This document shows positions 19,984 through 27,696 of a stretch of DNA of 64,000 bases, one piece after another (the stretch's first letter is position 1; every line of letters begins with the position of its first letter). Both the position numbers and the translations under genes were made by a program. The notes under the pieces were generated by a model. The model did no database searches and was not told the origin of the DNA. It saw only the letters and a list, made by a program, of their open reading frames with translations. Origin of the DNA: Streptomyces jeddahensis (GTDB lineage Bacteria > Actinomycetota > Actinomycetes > Streptomycetales > Streptomycetaceae); the NCBI RefSeq assembly GCF_001642995.1, contig NZ_LOHS01000093.1, positions 1-64,000 on the forward strand, given 5' to 3'.

Positions 19984-20074
19984 GGAACGCCTGCCCACAA
20001 CGGTGGGGAACGCCTGCCCACAACGGTGGGGGAGCGCCTGCCCACAACGGTGGGGAACGCCTGCCCACAACGGG
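19984..20074. repeat. 23-bp tandem repeat, four copies
   Basis: Copies begin at 19984, 20007, 20031 and 20054. Each starts GGAACGCCTGCCCACAACGG (third copy GGAGCG) and ends TGG except the last. The array lies immediately upstream of the xdhC-like start at 20089, replacing the short spacer expected in an xdh operon. Confidence 0.9.
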
Positions 20075-20088
20075 AACAGGAGACCCGA

Positions 20089-21240
20089 ATGCTGGACATC
20101 GCTGACGAGTTGAGCCGATGGGTTGCCCAGGGGCGCGACTTCGCCGTCGCCACCGTCGTGGCCGTCGGCGGCAGCGCCCCCCGCCAGCCCGGCGCCGCGC
20201 TCGCCGTCGACGCCGACGGCACCGCGATCGGCTCGGTCTCCGGCGGCTGCGTGGAGGGCGCCGTCTACGAGCTGTGCCGCCAGGCGCTCGAGGACGGCGA
20301 GACCGTCCTCGAGCGCTTCGGCTACAGCGACGACGACGCCTTCGCCATCGGCCTGACCTGCGGCGGCGTCATCGACATCCTCGTCACCCCGGTACGTGCG
20401 GACGCTCCCGCCCGGGAGGTGTTCGCGTCCGCGCTGTCCGCCGCCGCGGCAGGAGAGGCGGCGGCGGTCGCCCGGATCGTCTCGGGTCCGGCCGAACTCC
20501 GGGGGCGCCCCCTGCTCGTACGCGGCGACGGCTCGTACCAGGGCGGGCTCGGCGGGCACCCCGGACTGGACCGCACCGCGGCCGACGAGGCCCGTGCCTT
20601 CCTCGACGCGGGCCGTACCGGCACGCTGGAGATCGGAGAGCAGGGCTCTCGGTGCGGAGCACCGATCACGCTGCTCGTCGAGTCGTCCGTTCCACCGCCC
20701 CGCATGATCGTGTTCGGCGCCATCGACTTCGCGTCGGCCCTGGTCCGTATCGGCAGGTTCCTGGGCTACCGGATGACCGTGTGCGACGCCCGGCCGGTCT
20801 TCGCCACCCCGGCGCGCTTCCCGGAGGCCGACGAGGTCGTCGTCGAATGGCCCCACACCTACCTGGAGTCGACGCAGGTCGACGGCCGTACGGTGCTGTG
20901 CGTACTGACCCATGACGCGAAGTTCGACATCCCGCTGCTGCAACTGGCCCTGCGCCTCCCGGTCGCGTACGTCGGGGCGATGGGCTCGCGGCGTACGCAC
21001 CTCGACCGCAACGAGCGTCTGCGGGAGGCCGGCGTCACCGAACTCGAGCTCGCCCGCCTGCGCTCGCCCATAGGGCTGGATCTCGGTGCGCGTACGCCGG
21101 AGGAGACCGCCCTGTCCATCGCCGCGGAGATCGTCGCCAACCGGCGTGGCGGCAGCGGCGTTTCGCTGACCGGGGCGCACACGCCGATTCACCATGACGG
21201 GCCAAAGGCGACGGCGCGGCGGATCGGATCCGTCGCCTGA
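20089..21240 (+). CDS. XdhC/CoxI-family molybdenum cofactor insertion protein
   Basis: A 383-aa XdhC-type protein that binds and delivers sulfurated Mo-cofactor to xanthine dehydrogenase. The N-terminal XdhC_CoxI domain contains GSAPRQPGAALAV and SGGCVEGAV; the C-terminal Rossmann-like domain has VFGAIDFASALVRIGRFLGYR and YVGAMGSRRTH. The start is supported by AGGAGA 10 bases upstream. It follows the Mo subunit in the same direction, but 290 bp of repetitive DNA intervenes, so it may have acquired its own promoter or variable coupling. Confidence 0.92.
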   Translation: MLDIADELSRWVAQGRDFAVATVVAVGGSAPRQPGAALAVDADGTAIGSVSGGCVEGAVYELCRQALEDGETVLERFGYSDDDAFAIGLTCGGVIDILVTPVRADAPAREVFASALSAAAAGEAAAVARIVSGPAELRGRPLLVRGDGSYQGGLGGHPGLDRTAADEARAFLDAGRTGTLEIGEQGSRCGAPITLLVESSVPPPRMIVFGAIDFASALVRIGRFLGYRMTVCDARPVFATPARFPEADEVVVEWPHTYLESTQVDGRTVLCVLTHDAKFDIPLLQLALRLPVAYVGAMGSRRTHLDRNERLREAGVTELELARLRSPIGLDLGARTPEETALSIAAEIVANRRGGSGVSLTGAHTPIHHDGPKATARRIGSVA

Positions 21241-23266: not shown

Positions 23267-24334
23267 ATGTGTCAGATTCCGGATTCCGGGCGGTCCGGGG
23301 TGCCTGCCGACCGGTGGCAGCAGATCTGGAGCCATCGCGAGCAGTTGCTGACGGTGGCGCGGCGGCGGTCGACCAGCCCGCAGGACGCCGAGGACGCGGT
23401 GCACGAGGCCATGGCGAGGGCTGCGGAGCGCCCGTACCTGGACGGCGCTCGGCTCGGGGCGTGGCTGACCGCCGTCACCGTACGCCTGTGCATCGATCAG
23501 CACCGGCAGCTCAACCGGGACACGGGCATACGCCGACGGGTCGGCTCGGTGCTGGCAGCCCCCAGCGCCGTACCGCACGAGGAAGCCGTGTGCGATCGCG
23601 CGGAGGCGAGGTGGCTCGCCTGCCAGGGGAGCGGGCTGCCGGAGAAACAGCTGGAGGCGCTGCGGCTGAAGGCGCAGGACCTGGATGTGGCGCAGGTCGC
23701 GCAGCGGATGGGGCTGACCTACAAGGCCGCCGAATCCCTGCTGGGCCGCGCGCGGCGGACGCTGCGAGAGGCTCTGGCGGCGACGCTGGCCGTTGTCACC
23801 GTCTGGGTGTGGCGGGGGCGCCCGCGCCTGGACGGGGGCACGCCGGCGGCCGTGCCGACCGCTGTGCTGGCGTCCGCGGGGACACTCGTGATCGCGGGGC
23901 TCGTCCTGGTGTCGCCTCCAGGGACGGACGAGGGGTTCCTTCCCCGCCCCGACCGCGAGCGGCGGTCAGATGCCGTGTTCGTGTCGTCCCCCGAGGAGCC
24001 GAGCGCGCGGCCCTCGACCACCTCGGCCGCCGACTCTGTTGCGGAGCTCGTGGGCGTGCCCGCCCTTCCGGAGCCGGCGAGCAAGCCGGTCGGCGCACCG
24101 GGGCGGGGGGACGGTCCGGTGGAAGGGGACGGGTCCGTGCCGGAACAGCCGGTGCCCGGCGTGCCCGCCGCAGAGCTGCCGTCGCTGCCGAACGTGCCCG
24201 CTGTGCCGTCCGTGCCTTCCGTGCCCCCGCTTCCCGTACCGGTCGAGCCGGGTGATGCTTTGCCGAGCGTCGCCGTACCCGGTGTGCCCGGCGTCGTGTC
24301 CCCGGCGAGTCCGACGCCCCTGCCGCTGGACTGA
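23267..24334 (+). CDS. Sigma-70-family factor with membrane segments and Pro-rich tail
   Basis: A 355-aa protein. Residues ~15-165 are an ECF-like sigma factor: sigma-2 region (SPQDAEDAVHEAMARAAERPYLD...WLTAVTVRLCIDQHRQ) and sigma-4 HTH (LDVAQVAQRMGLTYKAAESLLGRARRTLRE). Then follow a hydrophobic segment at about 170-182 (ATLAVVTVWVW), a stronger one at about 200-217 (VLASAGTLVIAGLVLVS), and a ~135-residue tail rich in Pro, Val and Ser (PSVPSVPPLPVPVEP). No separate anti-sigma gene is nearby, so the tail may place or restrain the factor at the membrane. Secreted-protein genes follow in the same direction. Confidence 0.85.
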   Translation: MCQIPDSGRSGVPADRWQQIWSHREQLLTVARRRSTSPQDAEDAVHEAMARAAERPYLDGARLGAWLTAVTVRLCIDQHRQLNRDTGIRRRVGSVLAAPSAVPHEEAVCDRAEARWLACQGSGLPEKQLEALRLKAQDLDVAQVAQRMGLTYKAAESLLGRARRTLREALAATLAVVTVWVWRGRPRLDGGTPAAVPTAVLASAGTLVIAGLVLVSPPGTDEGFLPRPDRERRSDAVFVSSPEEPSARPSTTSAADSVAELVGVPALPEPASKPVGAPGRGDGPVEGDGSVPEQPVPGVPAAELPSLPNVPAVPSVPSVPPLPVPVEPGDALPSVAVPGVPGVVSPASPTPLPLD

Positions 24335-24350
24335 CCTGGTCCGGCCCCCC

Positions 24351-24385
24351 CGTACGCGGGTCCCCTTTCCCCGTCCTCGCGTACG
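24351..24385. promoter_or_regulatory. Inverted repeat CGTACGCG / CGCGTACG before the caspase-like gene
   Basis: Perfect 8-bp arms (24351-24358, 24378-24385) separated by 19 bp, followed by TGAAAAAAC. It lies between the sigma factor gene and the secreted protein gene; it could be an operator for the latter or a processing/termination hairpin for the former. Confidence 0.4.
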
Positions 24386-24489
24386 TGAAAAAACTTGCGC
24401 TTCTTCGCGAGGGAGCTGCCACCCGACTCCGTAGAGCAGGTGACAGCACCCGGTTCACCGCCTGGTGCGGCACAAGAAGCGGAGAGTTG

Positions 24490-25977
24490 ATGGGACACAC
24501 AAGCCACGGCAGGCGCCTTCGTCGCCGTGCACTGCTCGCGATACCGATCGCGTTGGCCTGCGCCCTGAGTGCCGGCACGGTCGGCAGCCTGCCCGCTCAT
24601 GCGGCGGTGGTCGAGGAGACGAGCCTCGGCAGGCGGTTCAACGACGGCCTGGACACCCGGCTCAGCGCCACGGCGTTCCGCGACGCGGCACGCTCGGCCG
24701 GCTACGCGGGCACCAGCCACACCGCAGGGCGCAGCGCGGACGACGCGTGGACGGACGGGCTGGACTCGGGCGTCTTCGCCCTGTTCGGACACTCGAACGG
24801 CGGCGTCTTCCAGACGGACGAGGGGCCTTCGGACGACCAGGACGCGATCCTCGCGGCCGGCCGGACGCAGGACGTGCTGCCGATCTACGCGAACCTGCGG
24901 TTCTTCACCGAGTACCTGCCGTACGCCGATGTCGACGACATGCGGCTGCTGATCCTCGCGGGCTGCTACACCTCCCAGTCCGGGCAGCTCGGGAACTTCA
25001 ACGAGGTCGCGGTCTCCCGCGGGATCGACTCGGCCATCAGCTTCTCGGGTCTGGTCATGTATCCGGCGACGGCGTACGGCACCTCGCCCGGTACGACGAA
25101 CTACTCCGGCAACTACTTCTGGAGCCGTTTCTCCTACCACGCCACCACCGGTGTGAGCGTGTCGACCGCGCTCGCCCGGGCCCGTACCGACCTGGTGACC
25201 AAGGAAGGCTCTGCGGGCGGCTGGGACCGCTACGTGATCCGGGGCGCCGTGGCCAGTCCCGGCTCGGTCAAGCTCAAGCCGGCGGGCGAGGGCGAGGCCT
25301 TGAACAGCCGGCCCCTCGCCACGCCGCAGTTCACCACCACCGCTGCCCTGACCCCGGTCGGCACGAGCACCACGCAGGGCCCGGCGGGCGAGCCGCTCAC
25401 GACCGTCGAGACCGCCGAGGGGGTCGAGTACCGGCAGGCCGCCGACGGATCGCTGGTCGACCTCGTGGGCACCCCGACGACCAGCGGGGACGTACGGCTC
25501 GGCCCGGACGAGACCCGTGCCGCCGCGCAGGAGTTCGTCCAGCGCAATGTCGCCGTGTGGGATGCGAGTTGGGAGCTGGTGGCCGAGGAGCCGGTCAGCC
25601 ACCTGGAGGGTGACGCCCTGACGCTCCTGACGTGGCGCCCGGTCGGCGAGGACGGTCACGCCGGTGCGCACCGGGTGACGGTCGAGATCGACCGCCGTAC
25701 CGGAGCGGTGACGTACCTGTCGGCCGCCCAGGGCGCGGCGGCCGAGAGGGCTTCCGCCTTCGGCGTCGGTCGCGACGAGGCGGTCCGTGCGGCCCGCGCC
25801 GCGATCGGCGACGACCGGGGCACCGCCACCGCCGTGGCCGACACCTGGAACGGTGACCGCTGGACGGTCACCGTCGACCGCGGTCTCACCGGCCGCCCCG
25901 GGGCCGAGATGCCGGACGTGGAGCGCGTCGAGATCGACGCCCGCACCGGCGATGTCCTGTCCCGTGCCAAGAGCTGA
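24490..25977 (+). CDS. Secreted caspase/CHAT-like (clan CD) protein with C-terminal PepSY-like region
   Basis: A 495-aa exported protein; signal peptide to about residue 38 (LPAHA-AV). Residues ~45-260 have the look of a clan CD peptidase: a strand ending in His101 (FALFGHSNGG) and a second ending in Cys159 (LLILAGCYTS), then a Gly-rich strand (GIDSAISFSGLV) and a CHAT-like end (YFWSRFSYHATTGVSVSTAL). Residues ~320-495 resemble one or two PepSY units (HRVTVEIDRRTGAVTYLSA; RVEIDARTGDVLS), domains often associated with protease inhibition. I recall similar proteins as a domain of unknown function (possibly DUF6345). Peptidase activity is inference. Confidence 0.75.
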   Translation: MGHTSHGRRLRRRALLAIPIALACALSAGTVGSLPAHAAVVEETSLGRRFNDGLDTRLSATAFRDAARSAGYAGTSHTAGRSADDAWTDGLDSGVFALFGHSNGGVFQTDEGPSDDQDAILAAGRTQDVLPIYANLRFFTEYLPYADVDDMRLLILAGCYTSQSGQLGNFNEVAVSRGIDSAISFSGLVMYPATAYGTSPGTTNYSGNYFWSRFSYHATTGVSVSTALARARTDLVTKEGSAGGWDRYVIRGAVASPGSVKLKPAGEGEALNSRPLATPQFTTTAALTPVGTSTTQGPAGEPLTTVETAEGVEYRQAADGSLVDLVGTPTTSGDVRLGPDETRAAAQEFVQRNVAVWDASWELVAEEPVSHLEGDALTLLTWRPVGEDGHAGAHRVTVEIDRRTGAVTYLSAAQGAAAERASAFGVGRDEAVRAARAAIGDDRGTATAVADTWNGDRWTVTVDRGLTGRPGAEMPDVERVEIDARTGDVLSRAKS

Positions 25978-26007
25978 CTACGCCAACCAACCGGAGCAGA
26001 AACACAC

Positions 26008-27291
26008 ATGGAAACCCGTTCTCTGACGATGTGGGCTGCGGCCATGGCCGGCTGCCTGTCCCTCACGCTGCTGCCCGCCGCCGCGGCGACCGCACAGACC
26101 GACGAGCCGTCCCCAACGGCCACCACGCTGACGACCCCGCAGGTCCAGCCGAAGGTGACGCGGCTGCTGTTCGCCGTACCGCAGACACTCGACGAGCTGA
26201 AGGTCGCTCTCACCGGGCTCCAGCCGCTGCTGCTGCGCTACACCGGCGAGATCGGCGGTGGCGACCAGCCAGGTCCCGGTGTCCCCGCCGACCAGGCCAT
26301 AGAAAGCATGCGCAAGAGTGTGATCGGCGAGTTCGGCGTGGAGCCGCTGGTCTTCCTCGTCGTCGTGGACGGCGAGGTGCCCGCGGCCCGGCTCGCGGCA
26401 CTCGACCCGCTGCTCGCCGAGGCCAAGGTCTTCGACTCGGACGCCGCAACCGTGGACAGCCTGCCCGCAGGCACCCTGGAAGAGGCCGCCCAAGCCACCC
26501 TTGACCGGGAGACGCTGCTGGGCCGCCGGGCGGCGATGGAGGCCGCCGTCGAGGAGAGCCGGAAGGAACCTGCCGCCGAACAGGGCGAGAGCCAGGACCA
26601 GGCGACCGCCCCGGCGAGCATCGGTAAACCATGGTCACCCTGGTACGGGAAGATGCAGGCCTACAACAATCCGTACGAGTCACCGACAGACATGCCGCGC
26701 CATTTCCGGCACTACCTTCGCTGGTACTCCTCCAGCGACCTCGCCGCGTTCGGTGACGACTTCGGCTACGAGCACAACCTTTCGCTGTACAACTACGATC
26801 TGGTGGACGTCTTTCCCCGCCCGTACTGCGCGGACAGCGCCTACACGCAGTTCTGGGCCGGATGGTCGACCGGGTTCAAGTGGAACGCGGTGAAGTACGG
26901 CTGGACGTTCCCGAGCGGCTCCGTCCCGTACTGGGACTGGGACGACACCACCGACTCCTGCCAGAAGCTCGACTTCTCCGTCGGTGTCGGCTACCCCAAG
27001 AAGCTCAGTGCCGGCGTGCAGTACTACTTCTGGATCGCCGCGGAGAAGGGAGCAAAATCCAGTTCTCCGTATGGCATGGACGCCCAGAAGCTCAGCAACG
27101 ACTGCAACGACGTCGGAATGGACCCCGGCAGCTCCTGCATGGGCCTGAACTACGATCGGTACGGCTCCGACACCCAGCGCTTGGTGAACAAGGACCGCGG
27201 CTGGCGCGTGCCGAGCTGCGCGGACTGGGTACGGGGCGGCGAGCCCACGTACAAGTCCAACGGCACGTACGACTGCCCCGCCAACCGTTGA
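26008..27291 (+). CDS. Secreted protein of unknown function
   Basis: A 427-aa exported protein with a signal peptide (to about residue 30, AATAQ). Residues ~50-190 are a mixed alpha/beta region with the hydrophobic strand EPLVFLVVVDGEVPAARL and coiled-coil-like helices (RRAAMEAAVEESRKEP). Residues ~215-427 are rich in Tyr, Trp and Asp with six or more cysteines (CADSAYTQF, DSCQKLDF, NDCNDVG, SSCMGL, PSCADWV, DCPAN), suggesting a disulfide-stabilised extracellular domain. It begins 30 bp after the caspase-like gene, so they probably share a transcript. I recognise no family. Confidence 0.7.
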   Translation: METRSLTMWAAAMAGCLSLTLLPAAAATAQTDEPSPTATTLTTPQVQPKVTRLLFAVPQTLDELKVALTGLQPLLLRYTGEIGGGDQPGPGVPADQAIESMRKSVIGEFGVEPLVFLVVVDGEVPAARLAALDPLLAEAKVFDSDAATVDSLPAGTLEEAAQATLDRETLLGRRAAMEAAVEESRKEPAAEQGESQDQATAPASIGKPWSPWYGKMQAYNNPYESPTDMPRHFRHYLRWYSSSDLAAFGDDFGYEHNLSLYNYDLVDVFPRPYCADSAYTQFWAGWSTGFKWNAVKYGWTFPSGSVPYWDWDDTTDSCQKLDFSVGVGYPKKLSAGVQYYFWIAAEKGAKSSSPYGMDAQKLSNDCNDVGMDPGSSCMGLNYDRYGSDTQRLVNKDRGWRVPSCADWVRGGEPTYKSNGTYDCPANR

Positions 27292-27318
27292 CGTCCTGAT
27301 TCTAGGAGGATGACCCGC

Positions 27319-27654
27319 ATGGCCAGAGGTGACAACCAGGCCCAGAAACTCCGGATCATCGGACTGACCGGGGCGCTCCTCTGCGCGGTGCTGTCCGCCC
27401 TGCTCTGGCTGGGAGCCGATGTCCTCGGGACCAAGGAATGCATGGAAAACGGCTACGGGCTGGGTGTCGAGGGCGGGGGCTCCCTCATGACCGAGCAGGG
27501 TTGCGAGCTCACTGTGCCGACCACCATGGGAGTGGTGAGCGGAGTGCTGCCCACCATCAGTGAGCCGGTGGCGACCGCGGCCCTCATCGCGGGCCTGGGC
27601 GGTGCCCTGCCACCCGGCATCTGCCTCTGGCTGGCGACCAGGCGTCCGCGCTGA
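27319..27654 (+). CDS. Small two-span membrane protein
   Basis: A 111-aa protein with two hydrophobic segments (LRIIGLTGALLCAVLSALLWLGA; VATAALIAGLGGALPPGICLWLA) and an intervening loop of about 45 residues with two Cys. ATG 27319 is preferred to the ATG at 27310 because AGGAGG (27304-27309) is 9 bases before it and directly abuts the other. It follows the secreted protein by 27 bp and precedes a strong terminator, so it closes this operon. Confidence 0.65.
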   Translation: MARGDNQAQKLRIIGLTGALLCAVLSALLWLGADVLGTKECMENGYGLGVEGGGSLMTEQGCELTVPTTMGVVSGVLPTISEPVATAALIAGLGGALPPGICLWLATRRPR

Positions 27655-27660
27655 CGCCCC

Positions 27661-27696
27661 GCCCTGTCCTGCCGGCTGCGTCCGGCAGGACAGGGC
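27661..27696. terminator. Strong hairpin terminator after the secreted-protein operon
   Basis: Perfect 15-bp stem GCCCTGTCCTGCCGG / CCGGCAGGACAGGGC with a 6-base loop, starting 7 bp after the stop of the small membrane protein. Confidence 0.9.

Follow-up and report, generated by a model that had tools for sequence, protein, structure and literature searches.

A candidate sigma factor-linked cassette encoding a secreted caspase/CHAT-like protein and an exchangeable gene pair in Streptomyces

Introduction

Extracytoplasmic function (ECF) sigma factors of the ECF52 type, such as SCO4117 of Streptomyces coelicolor, combine a sigma domain with a membrane segment and a Pro-rich outer extension, and two reports add a zinc finger and a carbohydrate-binding module to this layout and propose activation by proteolysis (PMC5826349, PMC8999054). 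In type III-E CRISPR systems, an ECF sigma factor is set free when a CHAT protease cuts the inhibitor bound to it (PMC10028731). A further Streptomyces system, the operon named mce6, is covered by PMC1810536, the accessible part of which mentions no sigma gene. Here, we describe a locus in a 64,000-nucleotide stretch of Streptomyces jeddahensis (NZ_LOHS01000093.1, positions 1 to 64,000; the window), in which, at 23267-27696, the gene of a putatively membrane-tethered sigma factor with a Pro-rich tail is followed by genes for a putative secreted caspase/CHAT-like protein, a Cys-rich secreted protein and a small membrane protein.

Like ECF52 and ECF48/ECF53 members, the sigma factor of this cassette possesses sigma-70 regions 2 and 4, and a membrane segment followed by a Pro-rich extension. 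It differs from ECF52 in that its gene is tied to a secreted caspase-like gene and that Pfam found neither a zinc finger nor a carbohydrate-binding domain in it; because these two domains were not found, it was not filed as ECF52, and it may work in a similar way. The motif reported for SCO4117 is CSGYN-17-SRHA, whereas the promoter proposed here is of the CGTAGAG type. ECF123 appears as a table entry in PMC8999054. The nearest working analogy is the Csx29/Csx30/CASP-sigma system of type III-E CRISPR, in which a CHAT protein is likewise linked to an ECF sigma factor with binding motifs in its own locus (PMC10028731). In contrast, the caspase-like protein of the cassette has a signal peptide, its sigma factor is fused to a membrane segment, and no cassette gene was recognised as Cas7-11 or Csx30.

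The titles and abstract openings listed for ECF sigma factors, mce operons and caspase-like proteins contained no description of the cassette or of a promoter joining mce operons to such a sigma factor. A secreted protein, SCO2423, is placed near a GlnR site in S. venezuelae in PMC3087709. The component parts of the cassette are of known kinds, and their assembly appears to be new.

Results

A conserved four-gene cassette

The four genes were all found on the plus strand, in the order given by an earlier first-pass annotation made from the sequence alone. The signal peptides of both secreted products were judged by eye.

23267..24334, plus strand: 355-aa sigma factor carrying a membrane segment and a Pro-rich tail in its C-terminal part (sigma-70 regions 2 and 4 by Pfam, linkage, mce paralogues)
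24490..25977, plus strand: 495-aa secreted protein, caspase/CHAT-like, ending in a YpeB/PepSY-like part (Pfam, conservation, profile, structure match)
26008..27291, plus strand: gene 3, secreted Cys/Trp/Tyr-rich protein, proposed effector, 427 aa (relatives in S. spinoverrucosus and on plasmids)
27319..27654, plus strand: gene 4, 111-aa membrane protein with two spans, proposed to confer immunity (conserved with the window-type effector in L009 and L020)
27661..27696, no strand: inverted repeat at the end of the operon, with exact 15-bp arms at 27661-27675 and 27682-27696

The start of the fourth gene was placed at 27319 rather than 27310 because an AGGAGG abuts the earlier ATG. The inverted repeat is exact; the terminator role given to it in the first-pass annotation is plausible, and no T-run stands behind it.

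The caspase-like protein was found at seven loci across a collection of 84,980 species, all of them in Streptomyces records. It had matches in 8 of 392 Streptomyces genomes, two of them (G165 and G242) confined to the PepSY part; a second sample of the genus gave 5 of 343 genomes, all previously found, and 396 genomes of the phylum added one match to the PepSY part (E 7e-4). The whole protein had zero matches among plasmids and phages. In an NCBIfam scan, the sigma factor matched general sigma models alone, and the remaining three proteins had no informative match. Once copies present in both sets had been merged, nine loci were counted as full-length, namely the window, L009 (S. spinoverrucosus), L010, L011, L012 (S. 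regalis), L013, L014, L015 and L017; the N terminus of the caspase-like protein is missing in L014. In 8/9 of these loci, the tailed sigma gene is immediately upstream of the caspase-like gene, so that the linkage proposed in the first-pass annotation is conserved. At L014, the place of the sigma gene (L014:7655-9000) is occupied by what appears to be a transposase-like sequence. Two remnants were also found: L020 retains the PepSY part, a broken gene 3 and gene 4, with no sigma gene found, and L021 has an intact sigma gene and a broken caspase-like gene.

The genes flanking the cassette in the window (GH6, polyketide-cyclase-like and two GT87) were not found in the available flanks of the 8 other loci, which vary in length and on the right side of L009 cover only about 0.2 kb. 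The GT87 pair was present without the cassette in 3/3 genomes examined. Therefore, the four genes most likely travel together as one unit. The ratio of nonsynonymous to synonymous substitution rates (dN/dS) between the window and L009 was 0.36 for the sigma gene, 0.18 for the caspase-like gene, 0.34 for gene 3 and 0.33 for gene 4, and the caspase part, at 0.14, gave the lowest value computed; by this measure all four genes are under purifying selection between the two loci. Between L011 and L012, the caspase-like gene gave 0.53, at low divergence, and gene 3 gave 0.25.

The low dN/dS and the conserved order imply that these genes are not chance open reading frames (ORFs), and the cassette is almost certainly a conserved unit. 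A sigma gene that merely happened to stand beside unrelated secreted genes would fit L014, where the caspase-like gene occurs without it; this explanation seems extremely improbable in view of the 8/9 linkage and of a promoter test that was trained on other loci, as described below.

A proposed promoter shared with mce operons

Relatives of the sigma factor were searched for in 61 genomes with a profile of the 9 cassette sigma factors. Matches with E no higher than 1e-20 occurred in 10 of these genomes, and cassettes are present in three of the 10; as a rule 32 candidates were scored per genome, and "none" for a genome means none within these. Nine (L041-L049) of 11 non-cassette matches examined sit directly upstream of genes for an MceG-like ATPase, a permease and Mce-like proteins, including one, L043 (G000:C199:58000-70000), in the window's own genome. 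Pfam, run on L047 alone, identified ABC_tran, MlaE twice and MlaD/Mce4_CUP1 twice. A transglycosylase-like gene (SLT_2 as tested on L047) precedes the sigma gene in 8/9 of these loci, the exception being L042. The caspase-like gene was not found by tblastn within the 12-kb stretches of the 9 mce loci.

A common motif, GCGACGGA-15 nt-CGTAGAGCAG, was identified upstream of the caspase-like gene (8 regions) and of the mce ATPase gene (9 regions). Its counterpart in the window consists of the following features.

24407..24444, plus strand: proposed sigma-dependent promoter, GCGAGGGA-N15-CGTAGAGCAGGTGAC, with CGTAGAG at 24430 (mce-trained matrix, pattern search)
24388..24393, plus strand: A-tract located about 14 bp ahead of the motif (an A-rich run occurs in most of the 17 regions)

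A 38-bp matrix trained solely on the 9 mce ATPase promoters was used to scan both strands of 11 cassette-type loci. The results showed that the top site lay directly upstream of the caspase-like gene in 9/11 loci, namely all 8 full-length loci that have a sigma gene plus the remnant L021, with scores of 18.4 to 35.3 bits against -10.7 to -0.8 for the runner-up within the same locus. Across the 64-kb window, the site at 24407-24444 scored 18.4 bits and the runner-up -5.9. The two loci in which the site is missing, L014 and L020, are both sigma-less. In 8/9 mce loci, there is a further site ahead of the transglycosylase gene (6.1 to 39.2 bits).

A pattern search was also carried out; the pattern, unlike the matrix, was composed with the window site in view. 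The site at 24407-24444 was the sole match in the window without mismatch. Allowing up to 3 mismatches raised the count to 7, against an expectation of 4.81, and each of the additional 6 carries 3 mismatches. Among 37 genomes, the exact pattern occurred in 5/5 carrying a tailed sigma factor and in 0/32 in which the sigma profile search found none. At up to 1 mismatch, the window's own genome has 3 sites, all at tailed-sigma loci (one in the window, the other two at the mce locus), and the 37 genomes together have 30, against 18 for the reversed pattern; our argument uses exact matches and those at tailed sigma genes only. Because of the 8/9 linkage and the result with the mce-trained matrix, the three downstream genes are the likely target of the sigma factor, and it is very likely that the sigma factor drives them as one operon.

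Two broader proposals were rejected. The motif is missing upstream of the sigma genes themselves, which does not fit autoregulation from the same promoter, and two more distant relatives, L050 and L051, have no such site, which does not fit its use by all tailed-sigma relatives. L050 (L050:9040-10338, G029:C15) encodes a tailed sigma factor preceded by a 76-aa peptide with what is presumably a double-glycine-like leader. L051 (L051:7636-9153, G000:C107) encodes a 505-aa relative in the window's own genome.

A short inverted repeat occupies the leader directly behind the promoter (window 24446-24468), with counterparts in L009-L013 and L015. Its sequence varies by locus (GCACC/GGTGC, TGCCAC/GTGGCA and others), and it is possibly a 5' hairpin.

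The mce6 operons thus resemble the cassette in having the same sigma family and promoter class directly upstream. They differ in their output, which is a lipid importer and a lytic transglycosylase there and secreted caspase-like and effector proteins here.

The sigma factor and its probable membrane tether

The sigma factor matched Pfam Sigma70_r2 (E 2.5e-10) and Sigma70_r4_2 (E 3.8e-7). A hydrophobic region begins directly behind region 4, and no zinc-finger match was found at Pfam E up to 1; at the same threshold, the tail matched no carbohydrate-binding module or other family.

23861..23911, plus strand: conserved hydrophobic segment, residues 199-215 (mean hydropathy 2.44; 1.92-2.44 in 9/9 homologues)
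23918..24331, plus strand: Pro-rich tail, residues 218-355 (138 aa, 24% Pro; 19-28% in 9 homologues)

The tail agrees with the Pro-rich extension of about 135 residues noted in the first-pass annotation. That annotation had also spoken of hydrophobic segments; the one at 199-215 is strong throughout, and a second at residues 165-181 is weak (hydropathy 1.44; 1.01-2.00 in homologues, at least 1.4 in 3/9). Since this second segment reaches 1.4 in so few homologues, a single crossing of the membrane is the safer reading. Positive residues are located ahead of the hydrophobic segment and acidic residues outnumber basic ones in the tail, and the topology would have the N terminus inside and the tail outside. 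By analogy with ECF52, release of the sigma factor from the membrane is slightly more likely than not.

In the sigma tree, the mce-locus proteins group at 88% support. A separate single clade for the cassette proteins was considered and rejected, the relevant nodes having 50-69% support.

The caspase/CHAT-like protein and its PepSY-like part

The 495-aa protein can be divided into two parts, and the apparent signal peptide, the His and Cys motifs and the PepSY-like repeats pointed out in the first-pass annotation are all present. The caspase-like strand order noted there found no confirmation, this part of the AlphaFold model being unusable.

24619..25293, plus strand: caspase/CHAT-like domain, residues 44-268 (hhalign against 24 CHAT sequences)
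24790..24792, plus strand: codon of His101 in FGHSNGG, proposed catalytic His (invariant 9/9)
24964..24966, plus strand: codon of Cys159 in LAGCYTS, proposed catalytic Cys (invariant 9/9)
25336..25974, plus strand: PepSY/YpeB-like part, residues 283-495 (Pfam PepSY, Foldseek 5boi)

Cys159 is the lone cysteine past the signal peptide in 9/9 members and follows a hydrophobic stretch, and the His stands in GH(A/S)N 58 residues before it. CHAT was the sole Pfam family found for the domain at E up to 10 (E 0.14, in 1/9 members). Comparison with 12 CHAT sequences gave P 0.0021. By hhalign against 24 CHAT sequences from related genomes, a profile of the nine members reached a local score of 33.3 (P 2e-4, probability 47%); Cys159 was aligned to the CHAT Cys, and both the stretch behind it and an ALxRAR helix were in register. 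Aligned globally (P 9e-4, probability 9%), His101 fell on the His of the CHAT "HG". The controls, which apply to the local score, remained lower: 12 other ORF families reached at most 17.9, the reversed profile 9.0, and 0/200 column shuffles reached 33.3 (best 21.0). The control families were taken from the same loci with a simple gene caller and may include false ORFs. The similarity to CHAT is weak and above controls, and a caspase-like fold of residues 44-268 is reasonably probable.

The protein resembles CHAT peptidases (PF12770, clan CD) in the order of His and Cys and in the register behind the Cys; it differs in falling below the Pfam cut-off, in being secreted and in its fusion to PepSY/YpeB-like repeats. 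A search of PDB chains with the profile returned two antibody fragments alone (E 0.14-0.18), which were treated as noise. Distant relatives of the domain were sought in 345 genomes of the class, which yielded 16 matches in 15 genomes besides the window's own (E 0.0065 to 0.097); being short or partial, these were taken as noise as well. Viral contigs gave no matches to the domain.

The C-terminal part matched Pfam PepSY with 26.4 bits, above the cut-off of 24 (E 8.6e-6), and its AlphaFold model, of moderate confidence, was most similar to the C-terminal domain of YpeB (5boi; Foldseek E 6.6e-5; Z 10.5, 3.2 A over 127 residues), followed by other PepSY proteins and metallopeptidase propeptides. 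It has PepSY repeats in common with YpeB and the propeptides (4k90, 3nqz). Here, in contrast, these lie C-terminal to a caspase-like domain and not ahead of a metallopeptidase, and a restraining action on the peptidase can be suggested by analogy only.

For the N-terminal domain, a different fold or a dead caspase-like scaffold has to be considered. Such a domain would be compatible with the subthreshold CHAT match and with the AlphaFold model of the caspase part, which was unusable (predicted local distance difference test score, pLDDT, 36.5; nearly all below 50 in the whole-protein model, whose mean is 50). It would leave less well explained the position of the invariant Cys and His, the alignment of both with CHAT and the dN/dS of the caspase part, and we consider it unlikely. 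Whether the protein is an active peptidase, as its sequence suggests, appears evenly balanced.

Genes 3 and 4 as an exchanged pair

As initially proposed, the product of gene 3 is Cys-rich and apparently secreted, with a signal-peptide-like N terminus and 6 Cys beyond residue 16, and the product of gene 4 has two hydrophobic spans. Gene 3 of the window, whose product is 78% identical to its S. spinoverrucosus counterpart, gave no Pfam match at E up to 1. Comparison of the loci revealed two gene-3 types of almost equal length, one in the window, L009 and L020, and the other in L010-L013, L015, L017 and, broken, in L021; profiles of the two (2 vs 6 sequences) had no similarity past the signal peptide. 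The gene-4 product of the window type has two spans with two Cys between them, and that of the other type has two to three spans, as computed for the window, L009, L010 and L011. Because the gene-4 type changes along with the gene-3 type, the two genes appear to be replaced jointly while the sigma/caspase-like core in front of them stays constant. L014 encodes a third product (165 aa, secreted), and gene 4 was not identified there.

Among 169 Streptomyces genomes, long matches to the window's gene 3 occurred solely at cassettes (G000, G177, G165), with short ones in G009 and G107. The other type had matches in 51/169, of which 4 were full-length at cassettes, two were weaker and long (G031, G163), and the rest were mostly short and in an N-terminal part resembling fibronectin type III (FN3). 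Outside the genus, relatives of the window type were found on plasmids of Cellulosimicrobium and Rhodococcus and, through the Cellulosimicrobium protein, of Microbacterium. A tblastn search with gene 3 of L011 found 11 Bacillus/Priestia plasmid records (E 4e-5 to 3e-15), one annotated as DUF3238. Neither the window gene 3 nor that of L010 or L011 matched DUF3238 (PF11579) in Pfam at E up to 1. The relation of the other type to DUF3238 is probably distant, and it does not include the window type; an assignment of the window protein to DUF3238 was rejected, since it has no similarity to the DUF3238-related type.

Twelve distinct plasmid loci were compared, comprising 9 that represent 17 records (the rest near-identical or equally similar copies) and 3 more. 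In 12/12, the immediate neighbour of the gene-3 relative encodes a protein of 62 to 151 aa with 2-4 spans, the Metabacillus one having merely 62 aa; such small multi-span proteins made up 2/47 of the non-adjacent listed genes of the same stretches, a control set that excludes immediate neighbours and cut genes. A secreted gene beside a small membrane-protein gene, kept when both move, is thus seen in both cassette types and at all plasmid loci, with L014 as the exception; secreted toxins and their immunity proteins are arranged in this way. One plasmid relative adjoins an annotated LXG polymorphic toxin, and another carries LGFP repeats, which are cell-wall-binding. Plasmids of 3-8 kb carry gene-3 relatives and little else. 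At L153:2730-6673, a 1175-aa protein ends in a DUF3238 domain and is followed 35 bp on by the gene of a 126-aa four-span protein, an arrangement typical of polymorphic toxins. From these sequence comparisons, we regard it as an even call whether genes 3 and 4 encode a toxin and its immunity protein.

On four Bacillus plasmids (L154, L155, L156 and L157), a DUF3238-type secreted protein is encoded divergently to a UPF0715 membrane protein, one such pair lying on a 2.9-kb plasmid with three genes; these are candidate bacteriocin pairs. They resemble the cassette in that a relative of the other gene-3 type stands beside a small multi-span protein, and differ from it in that no sigma or caspase-like gene is listed alongside. 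Our literature search found no paper naming DUF3238 or UPF0715 and no function for such pairs.

The cassette might instead maintain the envelope by remodelling or coating the surface, with gene 3 encoding a wall protein or an adhesin. The LGFP repeats would suit such a role, and so would the sister mce locus, where SLT_2 transglycosylase, MceG, two MlaE and Mce proteins are encoded and the motif precedes both parts. A housekeeping module would hardly be expected to spread so patchily, to have different neighbours from locus to locus and to swap genes 3 and 4 as a pair, and the small plasmids carry gene-3 relatives with few other genes; we therefore hold this explanation to be quite unlikely.

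A self-contained envelope-signalling loop was also weighed, in which the caspase-like protease would trim the sigma tail or be held off by the PepSY part, and genes 3 and 4 would be substrate or regulators. It would account for a sigma/caspase-like pairing that stays constant in 8/9 loci while genes 3 and 4 vary, and it has a precedent in the control of an ECF sigma factor by a CHAT protease through inhibitor cleavage in type III-E CRISPR (PMC10028731). Against it, paralogous tailed sigma factors at the 9 mce loci have no caspase-like gene within 12 kb, so that the protease need not be their partner, and relatives of genes 3 and 4 are paired away from any sigma gene. A loop of this kind is improbable in our view. 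The first-pass annotation had proposed an envelope-signalling or secreted-protease unit. Its gene linkage, His/Cys conservation and PepSY part stand; "envelope-signalling unit" is probably too narrow, because the promoter and the pair exchange make the sigma factor look like a controller of secreted effectors.

Discussion

The sequences compared here support the order of the genes, their patchy spread, a promoter motif in common with mce operons, the joint replacement of genes 3 and 4, the conservation of His101 and Cys159 and the YpeB-like model of the C-terminal half. We give an even chance to the view that the genes form a secretion cassette which moves horizontally and is switched by its sigma factor. 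In this view, the sigma factor would be kept at the membrane by its C-terminal segment, with the Pro-rich tail outside, until an envelope signal freed it, most likely by proteolysis as proposed for the ECF52 type. Once free, it would transcribe the downstream operon from the promoter class GCGAsGgA-N15-CGTAGAGCrG. The operon would yield a secreted caspase/CHAT-like cysteine peptidase, quieted or anchored by its YpeB/PepSY-like repeats, an effector secreted from gene 3 and, from gene 4, a small membrane protein that would shield the producer, the latter two being swapped as a pair behind the constant core. We infer, in this scheme, the reading of the promoter by the sigma factor, its release from the membrane, the peptidase activity, the toxicity of the effector and the immunity.

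Several results weigh against this proposal. L014 keeps the caspase-like gene without sigma gene, promoter, signal peptide or recognised gene 4, and the cassette sigma factors form no single supported clade. With 113/225 domain positions invariant among nine close homologues, and two further histidines, 217 and 371, likewise invariant, the invariance of His101 and Cys159 is weak evidence. The CHAT match by hmmscan reached 12.0 bits against a Pfam cut-off of 24 in one of nine members, and the AlphaFold model of the domain alone contains no usable caspase core. On the plasmids, no sigma or caspase genes are among the listed neighbours of the gene-3 relatives, and 3 of the 12 small neighbours (P. 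megaterium, Cellulosimicrobium and Microbacterium) are six-frame ORFs in gaps of an incomplete gene table.

In a more specific and rather doubtful version, the cassette would be an inducible weapon, in which the tethered sigma factor senses the envelope, perhaps through an attack on its own tail, and fires one promoter for a PepSY-restrained caspase and an interchangeable toxin/immunity pair. The caspase would activate or deliver the toxin, and the switch would be common to, or recruited from, mce control. That the peptidase acts on the effector, for example in its maturation, is a guess to which we attach little likelihood.

The family of tailed, membrane-fused sigma factors gains two natural target operons with one readable promoter code, and tether-and-release control can therefore be tested with a simple reporter. 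With the common promoter, the tailed sigma factor likewise becomes a candidate regulator whose role at Streptomyces mce operons can be tested. Should genes 3 and 4 prove to encode a toxin and its immunity protein, DUF3238 and the window gene-3 family would be new secreted toxin families on Bacillus and actinobacterial plasmids. An active caspase-like domain, for its part, would represent a secreted bacterial caspase under sigma control, an extracellular counterpart of the CRISPR caspase/sigma link.

Elsewhere in the window, two or three short direct repeats with CTGCCCACAACGG units were observed at 20008-20060, just upstream of a gene starting near 20089, and they read ERLPTTVG in one frame.

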